Shown here in pieces: positions 27,251-59,267 of a stretch of DNA of 64,000 bases (position 1 is its first letter; the number at the start of each line of letters is the position of its first letter). The translations under genes and the position numbers were made by a program. The DNA lies in the NCBI RefSeq assembly GCF_003667275.1, contig NZ_RCNV01000003.1, positions 186,001 through 250,000 of the forward strand, given 5' to 3'. The notes under the pieces were generated by a model, which saw nothing but the letters and a program-made list of their open reading frames with translations, did no database searches and was not told the origin of the DNA. This stretch comes from Mesonia aquimarina (GTDB taxonomy: Bacteria; Bacteroidota; Bacteroidia; Flavobacteriales; Flavobacteriaceae).

Positions 27251-27385
27251 AAGAGGCTGTCTAAAAAGTCTACTTTTGTCAACCTGAACTTGATTCAGGT
27301 TCTCATACTCATTTGCATTTCAGCAATATGAGATTCTAAAATAAATTCAGAATGACGTTTTTTTAATCTTTCTAGACAGCCTCTT
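27251..27385. repeat. MITE-like element with 18-bp terminal inverted repeats
   Basis: Termini AAGAGGCTGTCTAAAAAG (27251-27268) and its inverse (27368-27385) match at 17 of 18 positions and enclose 99 bases, too short for a transposase. Within it lies one copy of the dispersed palindromic repeat (27279-27357). It fills most of the 414-base intergenic gap between mutase and catalase (26999-27412); the remainder shows only the hairpin at 27092. No convincing target duplication is seen. Confidence 0.7.
27279..27357 (+). repeat. Dispersed hairpin repeat, copy 1
   Basis: Starts GTCAACCTGAA and ends AATGACG. A perfect hairpin with arms AACCTGAA/TTCAGGTT and loop CTTGA lies at 27281-27301. Related copies occur at 52824 and 57038. 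Confidence 0.75.
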
Positions 27386-27412: not shown

Positions 27413-28882
27413 TTATTTAATTTGGACACCTAAACCTTCTGCTATACGTCTTCCAAGCTCTTCGTCGGCTTTTTGCCAATGTTTTAATTGACGTTGGGTG
27501 ATTTCTTCTTTTTTAGGTCCATCTATCTGGCTCATCGAGCCAACTGTATTTTTCACTAGATTAGCTTTCGCTTCATCGTTCATAATCCGATATAGATTCC
27601 CGGGTTGTGTATAATGATCGTCGTCACCACTTTTTGAAGCATTTCTATCGTACCATTCCGCTTCAGCATCATCAACGCGTGGTGGTTTTAATTTATAGTC
27701 CTTATCAACTTCTATATCATCAAAACTATTTGGGTAATAATTTTCTGATCTTCCGCCGTTATCGCTTACTGTCATAAAACCGTCACGTTCATAATTATTA
27801 ACAGCATACGGACAACGATTTACAGGGATTTGCTCATAATTTACACCTAATCTATAACGGTGTGCATCTGGATAAGAAAGCAATCGACCTTGAAGCATTT
27901 TATCTGGAGAATAACCAATTCCATCGACTATATGTGCCGGTGCAAAAGCGGATTGCTCAATCTGCGCAAAATAATTATCGGCATTTTTATTGAGCTCCAT
28001 TTTTCCCACTTCAATTAGAGGGTAATCACCATGTGGCCAAACTTTAGACAAATCGAATGGATTCCACTTATAATTTTTAGCCTCCTCTTCGGGCATTACT
28101 TGAATTTTTAAAGTCCATGTTGGGAATTTCCCTTCCTCTATGTTTTCTAATAAATCTTGTTGCGAAAAATCCGGATTTTTACCCGCCATTTCTACCGACT
28201 CTTCATCTGTAAAATTTTTAATTCCTTGATCGGTTTTAAAATGAAATTTCACATAAAAACGCTCATCATTCGCATTTATCATTGAAAAGGTGTGCGATCC
28301 ATAACCATTCATGTGGCGATAACCGTAGGGTGTTCCTCGATCACTCATTAAAATTAAAACTTGATGAAGTGATTCTGGGTTTAAGGACCAAAAATCCCAT
28401 CGCATAGTTTGCGATTTCATATTAGTAAATGGATGCCTTTTTTGTGTGTGAATAAAATCACCAAATTTTTTCGGGTCTTTAATAAAAAACACTGGTGTAT
28501 TGTTACCTACTAAATCCCAATTACCATCCTCTGTATAAAATTTTAAAGCAAATCCGCGTGGATCGCGATCAGAATCTGCAGAACCTTTTTCTCCTCCTAC
28601 CGTAGAAAAGCGCGCTAACATATCGGTCTTTTTACCGACCTCAGAAAACATCTTTGCTTTTGTATATTTTGTAATATCATTGGTTACGGTAAACGTACCA
28701 AATGCACCAGAACCTTTTGCATGCACTACTCGTTCTGGAATTCGTTCTCTATTAAAATGCGCCATACTTTCGTGAAGCACGTAATCTTCTAATAATAAGG
28801 GACCTCTTCTACCTACACTTAACGAGTCTTCTTTTTCAACAAAAGGTCGACCAGATGCGGTGGTTAGTTTTTTCTTGCTCAT
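27413..28882 (-). CDS. katA: Catalase (monofunctional haem, clade 3 small-subunit)
   Basis: A 489-residue haem catalase. The active-site His is in ERVVHAKGSGAFG (about residue 54), the distal Asn in DLVGNNTPVFF (about 127), and the proximal haem Tyr in LLSYPDAHRYRLG (about 337). No signal peptide and no extra C-terminal flavodoxin-like domain, so it is the short, NADPH-binding type. It degrades H2O2 in the cytoplasm. Near-consensus -7 TATCTTTA lies on the minus strand at 28902-28909. Confidence 0.97.
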   Translation of the reverse strand: MSKKKLTTASGRPFVEKEDSLSVGRRGPLLLEDYVLHESMAHFNRERIPERVVHAKGSGAFGTFTVTNDITKYTKAKMFSEVGKKTDMLARFSTVGGEKGSADSDRDPRGFALKFYTEDGNWDLVGNNTPVFFIKDPKKFGDFIHTQKRHPFTNMKSQTMRWDFWSLNPESLHQVLILMSDRGTPYGYRHMNGYGSHTFSMINANDERFYVKFHFKTDQGIKNFTDEESVEMAGKNPDFSQQDLLENIEEGKFPTWTLKIQVMPEEEAKNYKWNPFDLSKVWPHGDYPLIEVGKMELNKNADNYFAQIEQSAFAPAHIVDGIGYSPDKMLQGRLLSYPDAHRYRLGVNYEQIPVNRCPYAVNNYERDGFMTVSDNGGRSENYYPNSFDDIEVDKDYKLKPPRVDDAEAEWYDRNASKSGDDDHYTQPGNLYRIMNDEAKANLVKNTVGSMSQIDGPKKEEITQRQLKHWQKADEELGRRIAEGLGVQIK

Positions 28883-52823: not shown

Positions 52824-52914
52824 GTCACCCTGAACTTGATTCAGGGTCTCACTGATTTAACCATGAGATGCTGAAATCTAAGATTTAACGGAGTTAATCA
52901 AGCTCAGCATAACA
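52824..52914 (+). repeat. Dispersed hairpin repeat, copy 2
   Basis: Begins GTCACCCTGAA; hairpin arms ACCCTGAA/TTCAGGGT with loop CTTGA at 52827-52847; ends with CAGCATAACAG. Most of the 360-base gap between yaaA and rluD (52707-53066) is this repeat plus the structured element at 52971. Confidence 0.8.
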
Positions 52915-52970
52915 GTATTTAAAAAATACAATTTATTGTACTAAAAAATCGAGAAAGTTTATTAGCAATA

Positions 52971-53034
52971 GGGATAGCAGCGGCATCCTTTTTTTTCTTT
53001 CATAAATGGCAAAAAAAGATATAGCGGATAGCCC
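52971..53034. ncRNA. Long imperfect hairpin, possible Flavo-1-like RNA element
   Basis: GGGATAGCAGCGGCATCC (52971-52988) faces GATATAGCGGATAGCCC (53018-53034). Watson-Crick pairs alternate with single purine-purine mismatches, and a T9 run faces an A7 run below the loop. I recall near-identical sequences (AGCAGCGG...AGCGGATAGCCCG) downstream of many flavobacterial genes, perhaps the Flavo-1 RNA motif; I cannot confirm the name. It starts 33 bases after the rluD stop on the minus strand, so strand is open. Confidence 0.45.
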
Positions 53035-53066
53035 GACCTGAAAACGCTAGTTTGATAGGATTGCCC

Positions 53067-54107
53067 TTATAATACTTCTTTTTGATTTTTGGCATAGTTT
53101 CGCCACTTCTCGATACAAAGTTGTATATCTTCCGGAATATCAGAATTAAAACGTAACCACTCCCCTGTTTTGGGATGCTCAAAACCTAGAGTTTTGGCGT
53201 GTAAGGCTTGGCGTGGTAATACTTTAAAACAATTATCGACAAACTGTTTGTATTTTGTAAAGGATGTTCCTTTTAGGATTTTATCGCCGCCGTAACGTTC
53301 GTCGTTAAAAAGGGTGTGGCCAATATGCTTCATATGCACACGGATTTGGTGCGTTCTACCGGTTTCTAACTTACAAGAAACCATAGTGACATAGCCAAAA
53401 CGCTCCAAGACTTTATAATGCGTTACCGCCGGTTTTCCTTGATCGGCTTCCTCGCCCTGATAAACGGTATTTTGCAAACGGTTTTTAGGGTGACGCCCAA
53501 TATTTCCTTCTATTTTTCCTTCCTCTTCATCAACATTTCCCCAGACCAAAGCTACATATTCACGTTCACTGGTTTTATTGAAAAACTGTTTAGAAAGATG
53601 CGCCATCGCGTCTTCAGTTTTGGCAACTACTAACAAGCCGCTGGTTTCCTTATCGATTCTATGAACCAATCCGGGTCGGTCGCTACTGTTATTCGGTAGG
53701 TTTTCAAAATGATATACCAAGGCATTGATCAGCGTTCCCGAATAATTCCCATGACCGGGATGCACCACCATTCCTGCAGGTTTATTGACTACCAAAAGTG
53801 TATCATCTTCATAAACAATACTTAGCGGAATATCTTCCGGGGTTAATAAAAACTCGTATGGGGGATGCTCAAACAGTACTTTTACCTCATCGCCTGCTTT
53901 TACCTTGTAGTTTTGCTTTACCGTATCGCCATTTACATAAACGTTTCCATTTTTAGCGGCTTGCTGAATTTTATTACGGGTCGCATTTTCCACAAAATTC
54001 ATCAAAAACTTATCTACGCGTAAAGGCTCCTGTCCTTGCGAGGCTACAAAACGATAATGTTCGTAAAGCTCATCACTCCCTTCATTAAAATCTTCTTCTT
54101 TCTGCAT
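53067..54107 (-). CDS. rluD: RluA-family pseudouridine synthase (RluD-like)
   Basis: A 346-residue enzyme: an S4 RNA-binding domain (about residues 25-80; LRVDKFLMNFVENATRNKIQ) and the catalytic RluA domain with HRIDKETSGLLVVAKT (about 135-150, catalytic Asp). It modifies 23S rRNA, probably at the helix 69 uridines as in RluD; the site is inferred. I use the ATG at 54107, one base after the PASTA stop; a GTG at 54119 is the alternative. Confidence 0.92.
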   Translation of the reverse strand: MQKEEDFNEGSDELYEHYRFVASQGQEPLRVDKFLMNFVENATRNKIQQAAKNGNVYVNGDTVKQNYKVKAGDEVKVLFEHPPYEFLLTPEDIPLSIVYEDDTLLVVNKPAGMVVHPGHGNYSGTLINALVYHFENLPNNSSDRPGLVHRIDKETSGLLVVAKTEDAMAHLSKQFFNKTSEREYVALVWGNVDEEEGKIEGNIGRHPKNRLQNTVYQGEEADQGKPAVTHYKVLERFGYVTMVSCKLETGRTHQIRVHMKHIGHTLFNDERYGGDKILKGTSFTKYKQFVDNCFKVLPRQALHAKTLGFEHPKTGEWLRFNSDIPEDIQLCIEKWRNYAKNQKEVL

Positions 54108-54108
54108 C

Positions 54109-54678
54109 TTATTCTTCACTATTATAATTTCTAGAACCGTCGCCTAAAATTAGATTGATGACTGTTGTTTTCATTAATTCATCTCCTTCTTGTAGCGTTT
54201 TCCCGTTGGCACGCATTTCTAAAACTACATCTTTACCAATATCCGGTTTATAGGTAATATCGCCTATTTTGAAGCCTAAGGAACTTAAGGTAGGGATTAC
54301 CTGACGTTTGGTACGGCCTATTAATCTTGGGATTTCTATTTTTGCATAACCCGAAGGATTTAAGGTTAAGTATATTTTACGATTTTCCTTTACTTGCTTA
54401 CCGGCCGCAGGAACTTGCTCGATCACCGAATATCGTGGGAAATCAGGATTATAATTTGCCGAGTCCAGAATTTCTCTTCTCAAATCCATTTCAGTTAATT
54501 TTTTATCAACCACATCTAAACTTAATCGCGATAAATCGGGTACCTTAATGCGTTGCTCATGATTAGTGGTATAATCTAACCATTGCATACTGGCAAAACC
54601 TAAAATAACCACCAGCAAGCCCGCAATGATTAATTGGATAAGAAATTTTTTACTAAAAATAAATTTGAAAAAGCTCAT
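54109..54678 (-). CDS. PASTA domain membrane protein
   Basis: A 189-residue protein with one N-terminal membrane helix (about residues 12-32) and two PASTA domains (about 42-112 and 115-183: IKVPDLSRLSLDVVDKKL, IEIPRLIGRTKRQVI, VVLEMRANGKTLQEGDEL). PASTA domains bind peptidoglycan fragments; there is no kinase or transpeptidase. The rluD start follows directly, and a perfect -7 TATCTTTG is at 54699-54706 on the minus strand. Confidence 0.9.
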   Translation of the reverse strand: MSFFKFIFSKKFLIQLIIAGLLVVILGFASMQWLDYTTNHEQRIKVPDLSRLSLDVVDKKLTEMDLRREILDSANYNPDFPRYSVIEQVPAAGKQVKENRKIYLTLNPSGYAKIEIPRLIGRTKRQVIPTLSSLGFKIGDITYKPDIGKDVVLEMRANGKTLQEGDELMKTTVINLILGDGSRNYNSEE

Positions 54679-56371: not shown

Positions 56372-57022
56372 GTGAAAAGAATTTTTAAAATAATACTGAA
56401 GATACTTGTCGTACTTATTTGCCTTCCAATTTTATATGGCCTTATAAGTTTACTTCTTAGTTATATCAGTATTAATACTACTCCTTCAACTAATAGTACT
56501 AACCTAGTGTATCTACATACAAATGGGGTTCATTTAGATATCATTATTCCCAAAAAAAATGCTTCAGAAAAATTATTACAAGATTTAGCCCTAGACGAAA
56601 CCGATGCCTTTTTATCGTTTGGTTGGGGCGATAAAAACTTCTATTTAAATACACCGGAATGGAGTGATTTAACGTTTAACAATGCAACAAAAGCGCTTTT
56701 CTTAAAAAGTGCTACCTGGATTCATTTGACAAAATATCAGCATAAAAGAAGTGATTGGACACCAGTTTATTTGAATAATGCCCAATTAAAAAAGCTTAAT
56801 ACTTACATTTTGAATAGCTTTTATCTAGATAAAAACCAGCAGAAAGTTTTATTACAAGGAAAAGGATATACCGACATAGATGATTTTTATGAAGCAACCG
56901 GAAGCTATCATTGCTTTTTTACTTGCAATACTTGGGTAAATCAAGCTTTTATTGAAAGTGATTTAAAAGCGTGTCTATGGACTCCTTTTGATTTTGCCCT
57001 AATAGACAAGTACACGGATTGA
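56372..57022 (+). CDS. TIGR02117/DUF2459-like protein
   Basis: A 216-residue protein with one N-terminal membrane helix (about residues 9-31) and a periplasmic domain showing HTNGVHLDIIIPKKN (about 49-63), FGWGDKNFYLNTPEW (about 83-97) and YHCFFTCNTWVNQAF (about 180-194), the pattern of the TIGR02117 (urease-region) family, whose function is unclear; His, Asp and Cys could form a hydrolase site (inference). The start is a GTG at 56372; no ATG is well placed. Confidence 0.8.
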   Translation: MKRIFKIILKILVVLICLPILYGLISLLLSYISINTTPSTNSTNLVYLHTNGVHLDIIIPKKNASEKLLQDLALDETDAFLSFGWGDKNFYLNTPEWSDLTFNNATKALFLKSATWIHLTKYQHKRSDWTPVYLNNAQLKKLNTYILNSFYLDKNQQKVLLQGKGYTDIDDFYEATGSYHCFFTCNTWVNQAFIESDLKACLWTPFDFALIDKYTD

Positions 57023-57037
57023 AAATTAATTTCAATA

Positions 57038-57143
57038 TGTCATGCTGAACTTGTTTAACTTCGTTGAATCTTCAATTTCAGCATCGCATCTGCATAATTC
57101 CCGATAATCACTATGAGACCCTAAATCAAGTTTAGGGTGACGT
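57038..57143 (-). repeat. Dispersed hairpin repeat, copy 3 (inverted)
   Basis: On the minus strand it begins GTCACCCTAAA and ends GTTCAGCATGACA, matching copy 2. Hairpin arms ACCCTAAA/TTTAGGGT with loop CTTGA (minus strand) at 57118-57138. It lies between the TIGR02117-like and TonB-receptor genes, which are convergent. Confidence 0.8.
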
Positions 57144-57158
57144 TATTATTTAAGAAGA

Positions 57159-59267
57159 TCAAAACAAACACTTCACTCCTACACCCCCATAATAATTTCT
57201 TGGATTTCCAGGGTAATAATAACGTGGTTCGCTGTTGCCAAAGCCAATGGCATTCGGTAAAATGCTTACTGCGTACTGTTCATTAAACACATTATTTATT
57301 CCGGCTTGAAAGTTAATCCTTAAAAAATCGATTGCTTTTAATTCATAAGCGGCTTTTAAATTGACTAATTGATAAGCATCACTGTATTTTGAATTCGCGT
57401 CGTTCAACGGTATTTCGGAAACAAATAAGGCATTGCTATAGAATGAAAATCCGTTTTTCGTTTGCACATCTAATCCAAGATTTATTTTTCTATCGGGAAC
57501 GCCGGTAAGTTCATTTCCACTATAATTATTCCCTTGATCGGTAAATTCATCAAATGAATATTCATTAAAACTCGCAGAAAAGTAAGGTTTCAACCGAATA
57601 AAATCAGAGAGTTCTACATTATAATTCAGCAAAATTTCTAATCCGTTATGATCGGTTTTTCCGGCGTTAATTCCAACATAGCGATCTTCAGCAACACGCC
57701 GCGCGACCAACAAATCGGATACTTGAATCGTGTACACGGAAATTTCTGTATATAAATTTTTAAACCAGGTTCCTTTAAAACCGATTTCATAATTCCAGCC
57801 GGTTTCGGGATTTAATTGGGTATTAATTCTTCCTTCGGGGGTTAAGGTTTCATCTACCGTGGGAATTGAAAACCCTTTGCTAATGCTAGCATACATATTT
57901 TTAGTGGAAGAAATTTTATAAAGAGCGGCAATTCGTGGTGACCATTCGGTATTGAATTGATAATCGCCCGATTGATCGATTTCATCTTCTACAAACAAAT
58001 CAGTTATTTCATAATCCGTTTGATTGACATTAAGCCCTCCTTCTATTTTCCAACGTTTAGAAAGTGATAAATTTAACTGACCAAAAAAGTTATAGTAATT
58101 TCTATCTTGATCGGCGTTGGCGATTATATTTCCGCGAACGCTTCCTTCACCCGGAAAATCTTCATATAAATTTTCAAAATTACTTCCGCTGTAATTTTCA
58201 CTTAAAACCTCTGCACCAAAACTCGTTTGTAGCGGAAGCTTAAAAAATTCAGTAGTAAAATTAAAACGCGTTCGTACCCCCAAATTATAACTTTCTTCTT
58301 TTAAAATATCAAAAGGTCGCGGCTCATACGCATCTTTATAATTGGTAAAAATACTGGTTGAATTTTTGAAGTCTTCAGAAAATTTATAGGAATACGATAA
58401 ACCTACTAAAACTTTATCATAGGATTCAAATCCTTTTGCTTGTTTCCACGTAAACGCAGCTTGACTCGGGTTTTCATTAAAATCTGTTTTACTAATCGAA
58501 CTCGGAATAAAAGCCTTCAAACGCGTAAAATTTCCAATAAAAGATAAGGTAGATTTCGCAGAAGCATATAAATTTCCATTTAAGGTTAACGATTTCCGAT
58601 CGTACGCTGAATTTTCTCGATAACCTTCTTGCTCTAGATGTGTATAATTTGCGAAAATATTTCCTGAAGTTGAACTAAAACCGGTATTCACCGAATTTTT
58701 TAATAATTGATAACTTCCGAAGGTGGAAGAAACTTCAGCAAAATTTTCATTATACCGGGGTTTTTTAGCATATAGGTTTAGTACACCACCCAAACCTGAA
58801 CCGTAAATACTGGAATTTGGTCCTTTTATAGTTTCAATATGATCGATACTTTCTGGCGCAATATCGTTAATAACCGTTTGTCCGTCGCCAGAACTTATTG
58901 GGATTTCATTAAAATATGCTTTTACGCGATTGGTACCATATTGTGCTCGCGCACCAATTCCGCGAATGGAAATTCTGTTGGTATTTAACGCGCCTTCTTG
59001 GGTAAAAATACCGGGTTTTCTATTAAAAGATTCGGTTAATAAAGTAGCTGAATTACGCGTTAATTCTTCAGCATCCAAATAATTTACCGCCGCCGGGATC
59101 GATTGCATTTCATCTTCAATAGAAGTCGATTGAATCAATACTTTCTCTAAGGAAGTGCTATCTTTTTTTGTAGGATTTTGTTGTGCTTTCGCAGAAATTA
59201 CCCCGAAAAAGCACAACAACACCCCTATTTCTATTTTTATCAACTGAAAAATAGACTTATTTGTCAT
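57159..59267 (-). CDS. TonB-dependent receptor
   Basis: A 702-residue outer-membrane receptor: signal peptide (about residues 1-29), plug (about 45-170; ISIRGIGARAQYGTNRVKAY, IETIKGPNSSIYGSGLGGVL) and a 22-strand barrel ending with Phe (GVGVKCLF). No N-terminal carboxypeptidase-like domain, so it is a stand-alone FecA/CirA-type rather than SusC-type receptor. It likely imports an iron chelate or small cofactor. Its ATG overlaps the upstream gene stop by 11 bases, so it is coupled to the sorbosone-dehydrogenase-like protein. Confidence 0.92.
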   Translation of the reverse strand: MTNKSIFQLIKIEIGVLLCFFGVISAKAQQNPTKKDSTSLEKVLIQSTSIEDEMQSIPAAVNYLDAEELTRNSATLLTESFNRKPGIFTQEGALNTNRISIRGIGARAQYGTNRVKAYFNEIPISSGDGQTVINDIAPESIDHIETIKGPNSSIYGSGLGGVLNLYAKKPRYNENFAEVSSTFGSYQLLKNSVNTGFSSTSGNIFANYTHLEQEGYRENSAYDRKSLTLNGNLYASAKSTLSFIGNFTRLKAFIPSSISKTDFNENPSQAAFTWKQAKGFESYDKVLVGLSYSYKFSEDFKNSTSIFTNYKDAYEPRPFDILKEESYNLGVRTRFNFTTEFFKLPLQTSFGAEVLSENYSGSNFENLYEDFPGEGSVRGNIIANADQDRNYYNFFGQLNLSLSKRWKIEGGLNVNQTDYEITDLFVEDEIDQSGDYQFNTEWSPRIAALYKISSTKNMYASISKGFSIPTVDETLTPEGRINTQLNPETGWNYEIGFKGTWFKNLYTEISVYTIQVSDLLVARRVAEDRYVGINAGKTDHNGLEILLNYNVELSDFIRLKPYFSASFNEYSFDEFTDQGNNYSGNELTGVPDRKINLGLDVQTKNGFSFYSNALFVSEIPLNDANSKYSDAYQLVNLKAAYELKAIDFLRINFQAGINNVFNEQYAVSILPNAIGFGNSEPRYYYPGNPRNYYGGVGVKCLF

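Follow-up and report, generated by a model that had tools for sequence, protein, structure and literature searches.

The window analysed here, 64,000 nt of the Mesonia aquimarina contig NZ_RCNV01000003.1 (positions 186,001-250,000; genome G000, window G000:C19:186001-250000), contains three copies of a dispersed hairpin repeat, and this raises the question of what kind of element these hairpins are and what moves them. A first-pass annotation of the window had reported hairpins at 27279, 52824 and, inverted, 57038, and all three are present.

Hairpin pairs in the window and their arms

Each of the three copies is a pair of inverted hairpins with GTCA-type tags facing outward (an HH dimer; Table 1). 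The partner unit of copy 1 (27328-27356, minus strand) is absent from the earlier list, and the half described there as shared by copies 2 and 3, GATGCTGAAAT...CAGCAT, corresponds to the second, long-loop unit of each pair. A scan of the window with a pattern anchored outside the arms, allowing up to two mismatches, recovered four units against 0.27 expected; none of 100 shuffled sequences reached four, and the largest count among them was two.

Table 1. REP copies and adjoining features, in positions of the window.
Feature	Position	Strand	Remarks
Copy 1, left outer arm AAGAGGCTGTCTAAAAAG	27251-27268	.	terminator-like
Copy 1, REP unit, CGTC-type	27278-27306	+	tag TGTCA, stem ACCTGAA, loop CTTGA, tail TCTCAT
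Copy 1, partner REP unit of tags-outward dimer	27328-27356	-	CGTCA, TTCTGAA/TTTAGAA
Copy 1, right outer arm CTTTCTAGACAGCCTCTT	27368-27385	.	coordinates counted from sequence
Catalase gene (PF00199)	27413-28882	-	copy 1 directly downstream of its stop
Copy 2, REP unit	52824-52852	+	CGTCA CCCTGAA CTTGA TTCAGGG TCTCAC
Copy 2, long-loop partner unit	52863-52914	-	stem TGCTGA..TTCAGCA, tag TGTT
Flavo-1 RNA (RF01705, 62.9 bits)	52960-53042		about 45 bases from REP copy 2
Pseudouridine synthase gene	53067-54119	-	copy 2 downstream, Flavo-1 RNA in between
DUF2459 gene	56372-57022	+	3' end adjoins copy 3
Copy 3, long-loop unit	57038-57089	+	tag TGTC
Copy 3, partner REP unit	57113-57142	-	CGTCA CCCTAAA CTTGA TTTAGGG TCTCAT
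TonB-dependent receptor gene	57159-59267	-	copy 3 between its 3' end and DUF2459 gene 3' end

The annotation had called for a genome-wide search for the palindrome. We used the pattern GTCA-N7-CTTG-N8-TC.CAT, whose anchors leave out the arms, so that arm variation among the recovered copies is unbiased, and took the reversed pattern as a control. The 3.28-Mb genome holds 45 exact anchored copies and no control match; when up to one mismatch is allowed there are 75 copies and two control matches, and the match at C20:117720 resembles a chance hit. The anchored pattern occurs in 20 of 60 genomes (G000 included), with a control count of zero in every one.

The compensated arm changes seen in the window hold with many copies. 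The 45 copies reduce to 26 distinct rows with 182 stem cells in all, and these comprise 169 Watson-Crick pairs, 6 GU pairs and 7 unpaired cells. When the 3' letters were shuffled, Watson-Crick pairs averaged 118.4 and never exceeded 134 in 2000 trials; stem cells altered on both sides number 36, against a shuffled maximum of 18. Since compensation exceeds that of the shuffles, the arms do not vary in the uncompensated fashion that the annotation had named as evidence against its reading. The loop, on the other hand, is not invariant as had been claimed (32 copies carry CTTGA, 11 CTTGT and 2 CTTGC). What remains of the earlier interpretation is therefore a REP/MITE-like dispersed element with a constraint or mechanism acting on its folded form, without loop invariance and without selection as the sole cause: selection on the fold is one cause of symmetric arm changes, and correction of palindromes without selection can leave the same pattern.

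Each window copy lies downstream of some gene's 3' end. Copy 1 is a composite in which an 18-base outer stem with one mismatch (17 of 18 positions pair) encloses the REP dimer, and in the catalase orthologues of G009, G002, G014, G011 and G003 a plain hairpin+T terminator occupies the place, as judged by eye, with the REP unit absent. The placement of all three copies, and the terminator-like outer stem of copy 1 at a site where five orthologues have a terminator, are what would be expected if selection maintained the hairpins as RNA elements of the host, either terminators or stabilisers of mRNA 3' ends, the nuclease genes described below being passengers. We consider this improbable: it leaves unexplained the repeats flanking those nuclease genes and the links of nuclease subfamily with palindrome type and copy number, some copies lie in frame inside leuS, and the sites that we examined are not conserved between species. 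A known RNA family was also considered for the hairpins and rejected, as the window's only Rfam matches at the gathering threshold are a tRNA and Flavo-1.

The outer stem could also mark composite copy 1 as a MITE whose parent insertion sequence has AAGAGGCTGTCT ends and whose cargo is the REP dimer. The nearly perfect 18-base inverted repeat agrees with this, as do similar arms near REP units at 12 of 41 loci of the same genome; the arm pattern is unmatched at the other 29, and outer arms are absent from copies 2 and 3, making such an origin very improbable.

Relation to CGTC-tagged REPs and the expected transposase

The window hairpins fit the published super-family of CGTC-tagged REPs; the pairing with a nuclease described below is the new part. 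Passages of Di Nocera et al. 2013 (PMC3733652) report these REPs from five phyla, apparently without a dedicated transposase, and leave their mover open. The same passages name Bacteroidetes and G. forsetii, as well as Azospirillum lipoferum, Novosphingobium aromaticivorans and Sinorhizobium meliloti, among the hosts, and count rickettsial RPE-4/RPE-6 and neisserial dRS3 as members. As described there, the published families share with our hairpins the CGTC/TGTC tag, an 8-bp stem, a 5-nt loop, a predominance of HH dimers and an intergenic location with some intragenic copies. They differ in that the tail is CTCAT here rather than the CCA consensus, that long-loop units occur here, and that here a GIY-YIG gene is bracketed.

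In the window, the unpaired tag is CGTC or TGTC in five of six units, the long-loop unit of copy 2 having TGTT. Against a family stem of 8-9 bp with an AT pair first and a loop of 4-5 nt, the regular units have A plus 7 bp and a loop of 5, and the long-loop units fall outside the loop length. The tail departs from CCA, reading TCTCAT in 39 of the 45 copies under a search pattern that itself demanded TC.CAT; according to Di Nocera et al. 2013 most, not all, tails of CGTC REPs fit CCA. HH dimers predominate: of 53 units at the 41 loci of this genome, 27 are HH, 7 TT and 19 single, the last overcounted since the dimer scan is blind to long-loop partners.

The annotation expected a linked REP-associated transposase, as for ordinary REPs moved by the HUH tyrosine transposase RAYT. 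The general likeness to REP/REPIN elements and the inverted-hairpin dimers speak for such a mover, and the REP-rich genomes G011 and G014 do have PF01797 matches, weak or strong. In G000, with its 45 units, there is no PF01797 match at E<=0.001, and at this threshold none was found either in the REP-rich genomes G003, G009 and G013 (20, 58 and 47 units). A REP unit within 1.5 kb (less at contig ends) was found at none of the 15 PF01797 loci of the genus. The window units bear CGTC, TGTC or TGTT instead of the GTAG tag, and the passages of Di Nocera et al. 2013 (PMC3733652) report no transposase association for CGTC REPs. RAYT/Y1 was thus rejected as the mover in this genome, where PF01797 has no match at this threshold and the PF01797 loci of the genus lack REP units nearby, and we regard a role for it as highly doubtful.

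GIY-YIG genes between inverted palindromes

By reading clustered copies we found, in G000, G003 and G011, an open frame of about 92-93 aa lying between REP units. It encodes a single domain matching Pfam GIY-YIG (E 4.4e-15). In G000 (locus L067) the layout is CGTCA-hairpin-TCGCAT, 11 bases, ATG...TAA, 12 bases and ATGAGA-hairpin-TGACG, that is, a gene inside an HH pair, and this element sits between mutA-like and mutB-like genes (named by inspection). Related gene-in-pair arrangements occur in G011 and G003, and also at L076, L101, L102, L103 and L104. Homologues were found at E<=0.001 in 41 of the 60 genomes. The arrangement resembles the REP/RAYT (REPIN) system in that non-autonomous inverted hairpin pairs occur together with a small, dedicated nuclease gene that hairpins of the same kind enclose, and differs from it in that the enzyme is GIY-YIG rather than HUH Y1 and the tag GTCA rather than GTAG.

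In G003 and G011, REP units also occupy many intergenic gaps of an apparent histidine-biosynthesis operon (L061 4233-12869, L062 4445-12835). An integron-like array was considered for the clusters in these two genomes and rejected, as the clusters are dimers in the gaps of this operon, whose genes were named by inspection.

GIY-YIG motif positions are catalytic in this class of enzymes, and of the 139 genes scored here 136-138 retain each of Y7, Y18, G20, R28, H32 and E65; dN/dS is 0.06-0.21 in five of six Mesonia nuclease pairs, the sixth being not computable. The AlphaFold model is one compact domain (pLDDT 93). In Foldseek the only match with E<=0.001 is UPF0213 (1zg2, E 2e-4, TMq 0.59), followed by Slx1 structures (E 0.02 and above, TMq about 0.6) and then UvrC, while I-TevI ranks 20th (E 0.67). 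UPF0213/YhbQ and Slx1 are thus the closest solved folds to the REP-bracketed nuclease. Slx1 is a nuclease of branched DNA, and these fold matches are compatible with action on folded DNA. With the I-TevI-type homing endonucleases the protein shares the catalytic fold and the motif residues; it differs from them in being a single domain of about 92 aa, and I-TevI is a weak fold match. As read, the small GIY-YIG genes stand alone in the spacers between other genes, and none was seen in an intron or intein.

We scored the flanks of 139 distinct GIY-YIG genes by local alignment, matching the 200 bp on the 5' side against the reverse-complemented 200 bp on the 3' side, with 884 geometry-matched positions as controls. 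Loci L081, L096, L099, L123 and L147 (no usable frame, unscored) and 16 further rows were excluded, and one of the three gene sets comes from a plasmid collection (12 of 32 records). A score of at least 24 was reached by 94 of the 139 genes (45 fall below the cut) and by 27 of the 884 controls. The enrichment is present in each set (50/78, 35/49 and, for the plasmid collection, 9/12; Fisher p 1.8e-43, 2.8e-35 and 1.9e-11 against the same controls), as it is at a cut of 28 (40/78, 22/49 and 9/12 against 8/884). Inverted repeats thus flank small GIY-YIG genes far more often than comparable positions.

The plasmid-set positives include three of the hosts named above, Azospirillum lipoferum (with the gene between sufB and sufC), Novosphingobium aromaticivorans and Sinorhizobium meliloti, together with Sphingobium, Shinella, one Rhizobium, Planktothrix, Spirosoma and Neisseria gonorrhoeae; the flank repeat is below the cut in Aeromonas, Photobacterium and a second Rhizobium. 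Two records listed as plasmids, NZ_CP119140.1 and NZ_AP026896.1 (2.2 and 4.9 Mb), resemble chromosomes in length. The gonococcal gene (L192, score 45) is flanked by inverted GTCATTCCCGCG-type units, a likeness to dRS3 and RPE-4/RPE-6 of the super-family; these units differ from the Mesonia arrangement in their inward tags and in their distances of 118 and 76 bases from the gene. At L194 and L199 the repeat exceeds 100 bases, longer than a REP pair, and L199 adjoins an IS4 transposase gene. Locus L204 (G124:C86:44500-46700) carries three tandem GIY-YIG genes, each flanked by inverted palindromes (scores 59, 32 and 52).

The tags of these repeats face mostly outward. Among 79 repeats scoring at least 26, outward GTCA occurs in 49 and is the commonest 4-mer; in 11 it is found inward only, and 19 lack it in both orientations. 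A strict rule (GTCA, 6-bp stem and TC on both sides, tags outward), blind to most palindromes of other types, is satisfied by 15 of 81 GIY-YIG genes against 0 of 54 neighbouring genes, and permuted tags gave 0-1; with tags inward the counts are 5 of 81 and 3 of 54. An initial control with swapped flanks had little power, since palindromes recur among the flanks of different genes (a gene's own 3' flank came first in just 19 of 81 cases), and it was superseded by the geometry-matched null; in that swapped-flank test the shuffled 99% cut was passed by 49 of 81 GIY-YIG genes and 5 of 54 neighbouring genes. The YTGST-type genes, which we take to be UPF0213-like, provide a natural negative control: they differ from the other genes in lacking strong flank repeats (score of at least 28 in 0 of 6 against 71 of 133 others; at least 24 in 2 of 6 against 92 of 133).

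Palindrome type, copy number and occupancy of sites

The palindromes vary with nuclease subfamily and include, among the flanks listed, the CTGAACTTGA types, GTCATTCCTGCG/GTCATTCCCGCG, GTCATTGCGAG, GTCACTTCGAG, GTCACCCTGAGCTTGTCGAAG and others. The more alike two nucleases are in sequence, the more alike their palindromes (Mantel rho 0.22, and 0.15 for pairs below 60% identity; in both cases 0 of 2000 permutations as high). Between different (approximate) genera the palindrome is shared in 45% of 137 pairs with at least 60% identity and in 2% of 2341 pairs below 50%, while unrelated nucleases within one genome share it in 0 of 14 pairs, no more than across genomes. Sharing across genera combined with none within a genome indicates that the palindrome follows the nuclease rather than the host; this is a tendency, and shared ancestry adds to the correlation.

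The presence of a nuclease also goes with higher palindrome copy number in the two subfamilies tested, with exceptions in both directions, under thresholds (60% identity, 150 bits, copy counts) chosen after the lists were known and with the query sources (G121 for L183; G000, G003 and G011 for A1) among the positives. An L183-like nuclease (at least 60% identity) is present in nine of 148 Bacteroidota genomes, which have 30, 41, 0, 15, 79, 19, 0, 0 and 16 copies of GTCATTCCCGCGNNNGCGGGAATC, whereas in the 139 genomes without one 16 counts are nonzero and the maximum is 13 (Mann-Whitney U p 1.8e-7, kinship ignored), so that at least 15 copies are found in six of nine genomes with the cognate nuclease and in none of the 139 others. 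G128, G118 and G145 have an L183-like nuclease and no copy of the exact GTCATTCCCGCGNNNGCGGGAATC palindrome. For the CTGAACTTGA type, at least nine units occur in all six of the 60 genomes with an A1-type nuclease (at least 150 bits) and in four of the 54 others (p 4e-6, kinship ignored); within the genus the figures are five of five and four of eleven (p 0.03). No A1-type nuclease accompanies the units of G002, G004, G007 and G014, which number 30, 16, 12 and 63.

Sites also differ in occupancy between related genomes. At the mutA-mutB gap the element with its nuclease gene is present in G000 alone of 16 genomes. Of the other 15, inspected by eye over 250 bases each, ten have no REP, G013 and G015 have fragments, and G009, G011 and G014 (L243, L244 and L245) have a solo hairpin tagged at both ends (CGTCA..TGACG). 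Such hairpins resemble the product of a dimer collapsing between its pair of CTGAA arms, or they could be pre-insertion sites; another one lies at L019 near 1495. A nuclease-bearing copy stands between the same two genes in G003, G009, G011 and G013, and its identical neighbours there indicate that it is old. Within leuS, two sites hold in-frame pairs with tags inward, the first in G000 and G013 and the second in G000 and G002, and no such pair was found in the other genomes of the 16; a comparison of filled and empty leuS sites by eye gave no clean junction or target-site duplication, and the copies seem to replace 10-20 bases.

These observations lead us to propose that the cognate GIY-YIG nuclease is probably the partner that mobilises CGTC-tagged REPs, the window hairpins being non-autonomous HH dimers. 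The autonomous form would be an HH dimer with the GIY-YIG gene in its spacer (CGTCA-hairpin-[gene]-hairpin-TGACG). The dimer would fold, each small GIY-YIG subfamily would recognise its own folded palindrome, as a cruciform or a single-stranded hairpin, and the nuclease would cut at or near the palindrome or tag. The excised or copied element would then insert at new, mainly intergenic sites, yielding nuclease-bearing copies as well as gene-less dimers, of which the window copies would be examples. Because GIY-YIG enzymes are hydrolytic, joining at the new site would need host repair or another activity.

The main rival is that the dimers are made by something else and that a GIY-YIG homing endonuclease inserts itself into their spacers, the palindrome being its target. 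GIY-YIG homing enzymes are well established, and cognate specificity would look identical. IS elements that target REPs are also known (PMC1525189). The solo tagged hairpins at mutA-mutB could be pre-insertion sites, and the REP-rich genomes without an A1-type nuclease, with up to 63 copies, count for homing and against mobilisation. Against homing, the one palindrome tested phylum-wide reaches 15 copies solely alongside its cognate nuclease, a mover of the expected type was not found in G000, and ten of the 15 mutA-mutB neighbourhoods show no REP, by eye, in the 250 bases inspected. Since copy number is linked to the nuclease and no other mover is known, we favour mobilisation over homing, which we consider unlikely yet deserving of attention; as the genomes that supplied the queries count among the positives themselves, we have slightly lowered our confidence in the former and raised it for the latter.

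Mobilisation by the cognate nuclease may extend well beyond Mesonia: we give an even chance to a widespread class of bacterial mobile elements in which GTCA-tagged palindrome pairs are moved by single-domain GIY-YIG nucleases, each cognate to its palindrome and acting on the folded DNA. If so, the class would occupy at least two phyla (Bacteroidota and Pseudomonadota), would explain the orphan CGTC REP super-family with its rickettsial RPE and neisserial dRS3 relatives, and would parallel REP/RAYT on unrelated chemistry. Cognate pairing would give a function to proteins annotated merely as 'GIY-YIG nuclease family protein' and would explain the coexistence of several unrelated palindrome families in one genome, and with a cognate nuclease family the question of the mover can be put to a direct test on a protein of 92 aa and a hairpin of 29 nt. 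Among the matches listed, no title or abstract opening of an open-licence PMC paper links GIY-YIG with REPs, and in the full text of the open-licence PMC literature GIY-YIG co-occurs with none of repetitive extragenic palindromic, rickettsia palindromic element and UPF0213; a term search of a 2025 REP survey (PMC12306157) found no word beginning with GIY or nuclease.

A different domain occurs at one of the sites described above. In leuS, a DUF559 domain (PF04480) of about 115 aa is inserted in frame at the same point as the REP pairs of G000 and G013; this insert is found in G002 (L233), G005 (L236), G010 (L235), G014 (L228) and G015 (L234). DUF559 genes (among L273-L301) also tend to have inverted flank palindromes with C/G runs, scoring at least 30 in 8 of 23 genes against 1 of 460 controls and at least 26 in 13 of 23 against 19 of 460, several of the 23 being orthologues of one another. 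DUF559 and the C/G-run palindromes are possibly a second nuclease-palindrome pairing.
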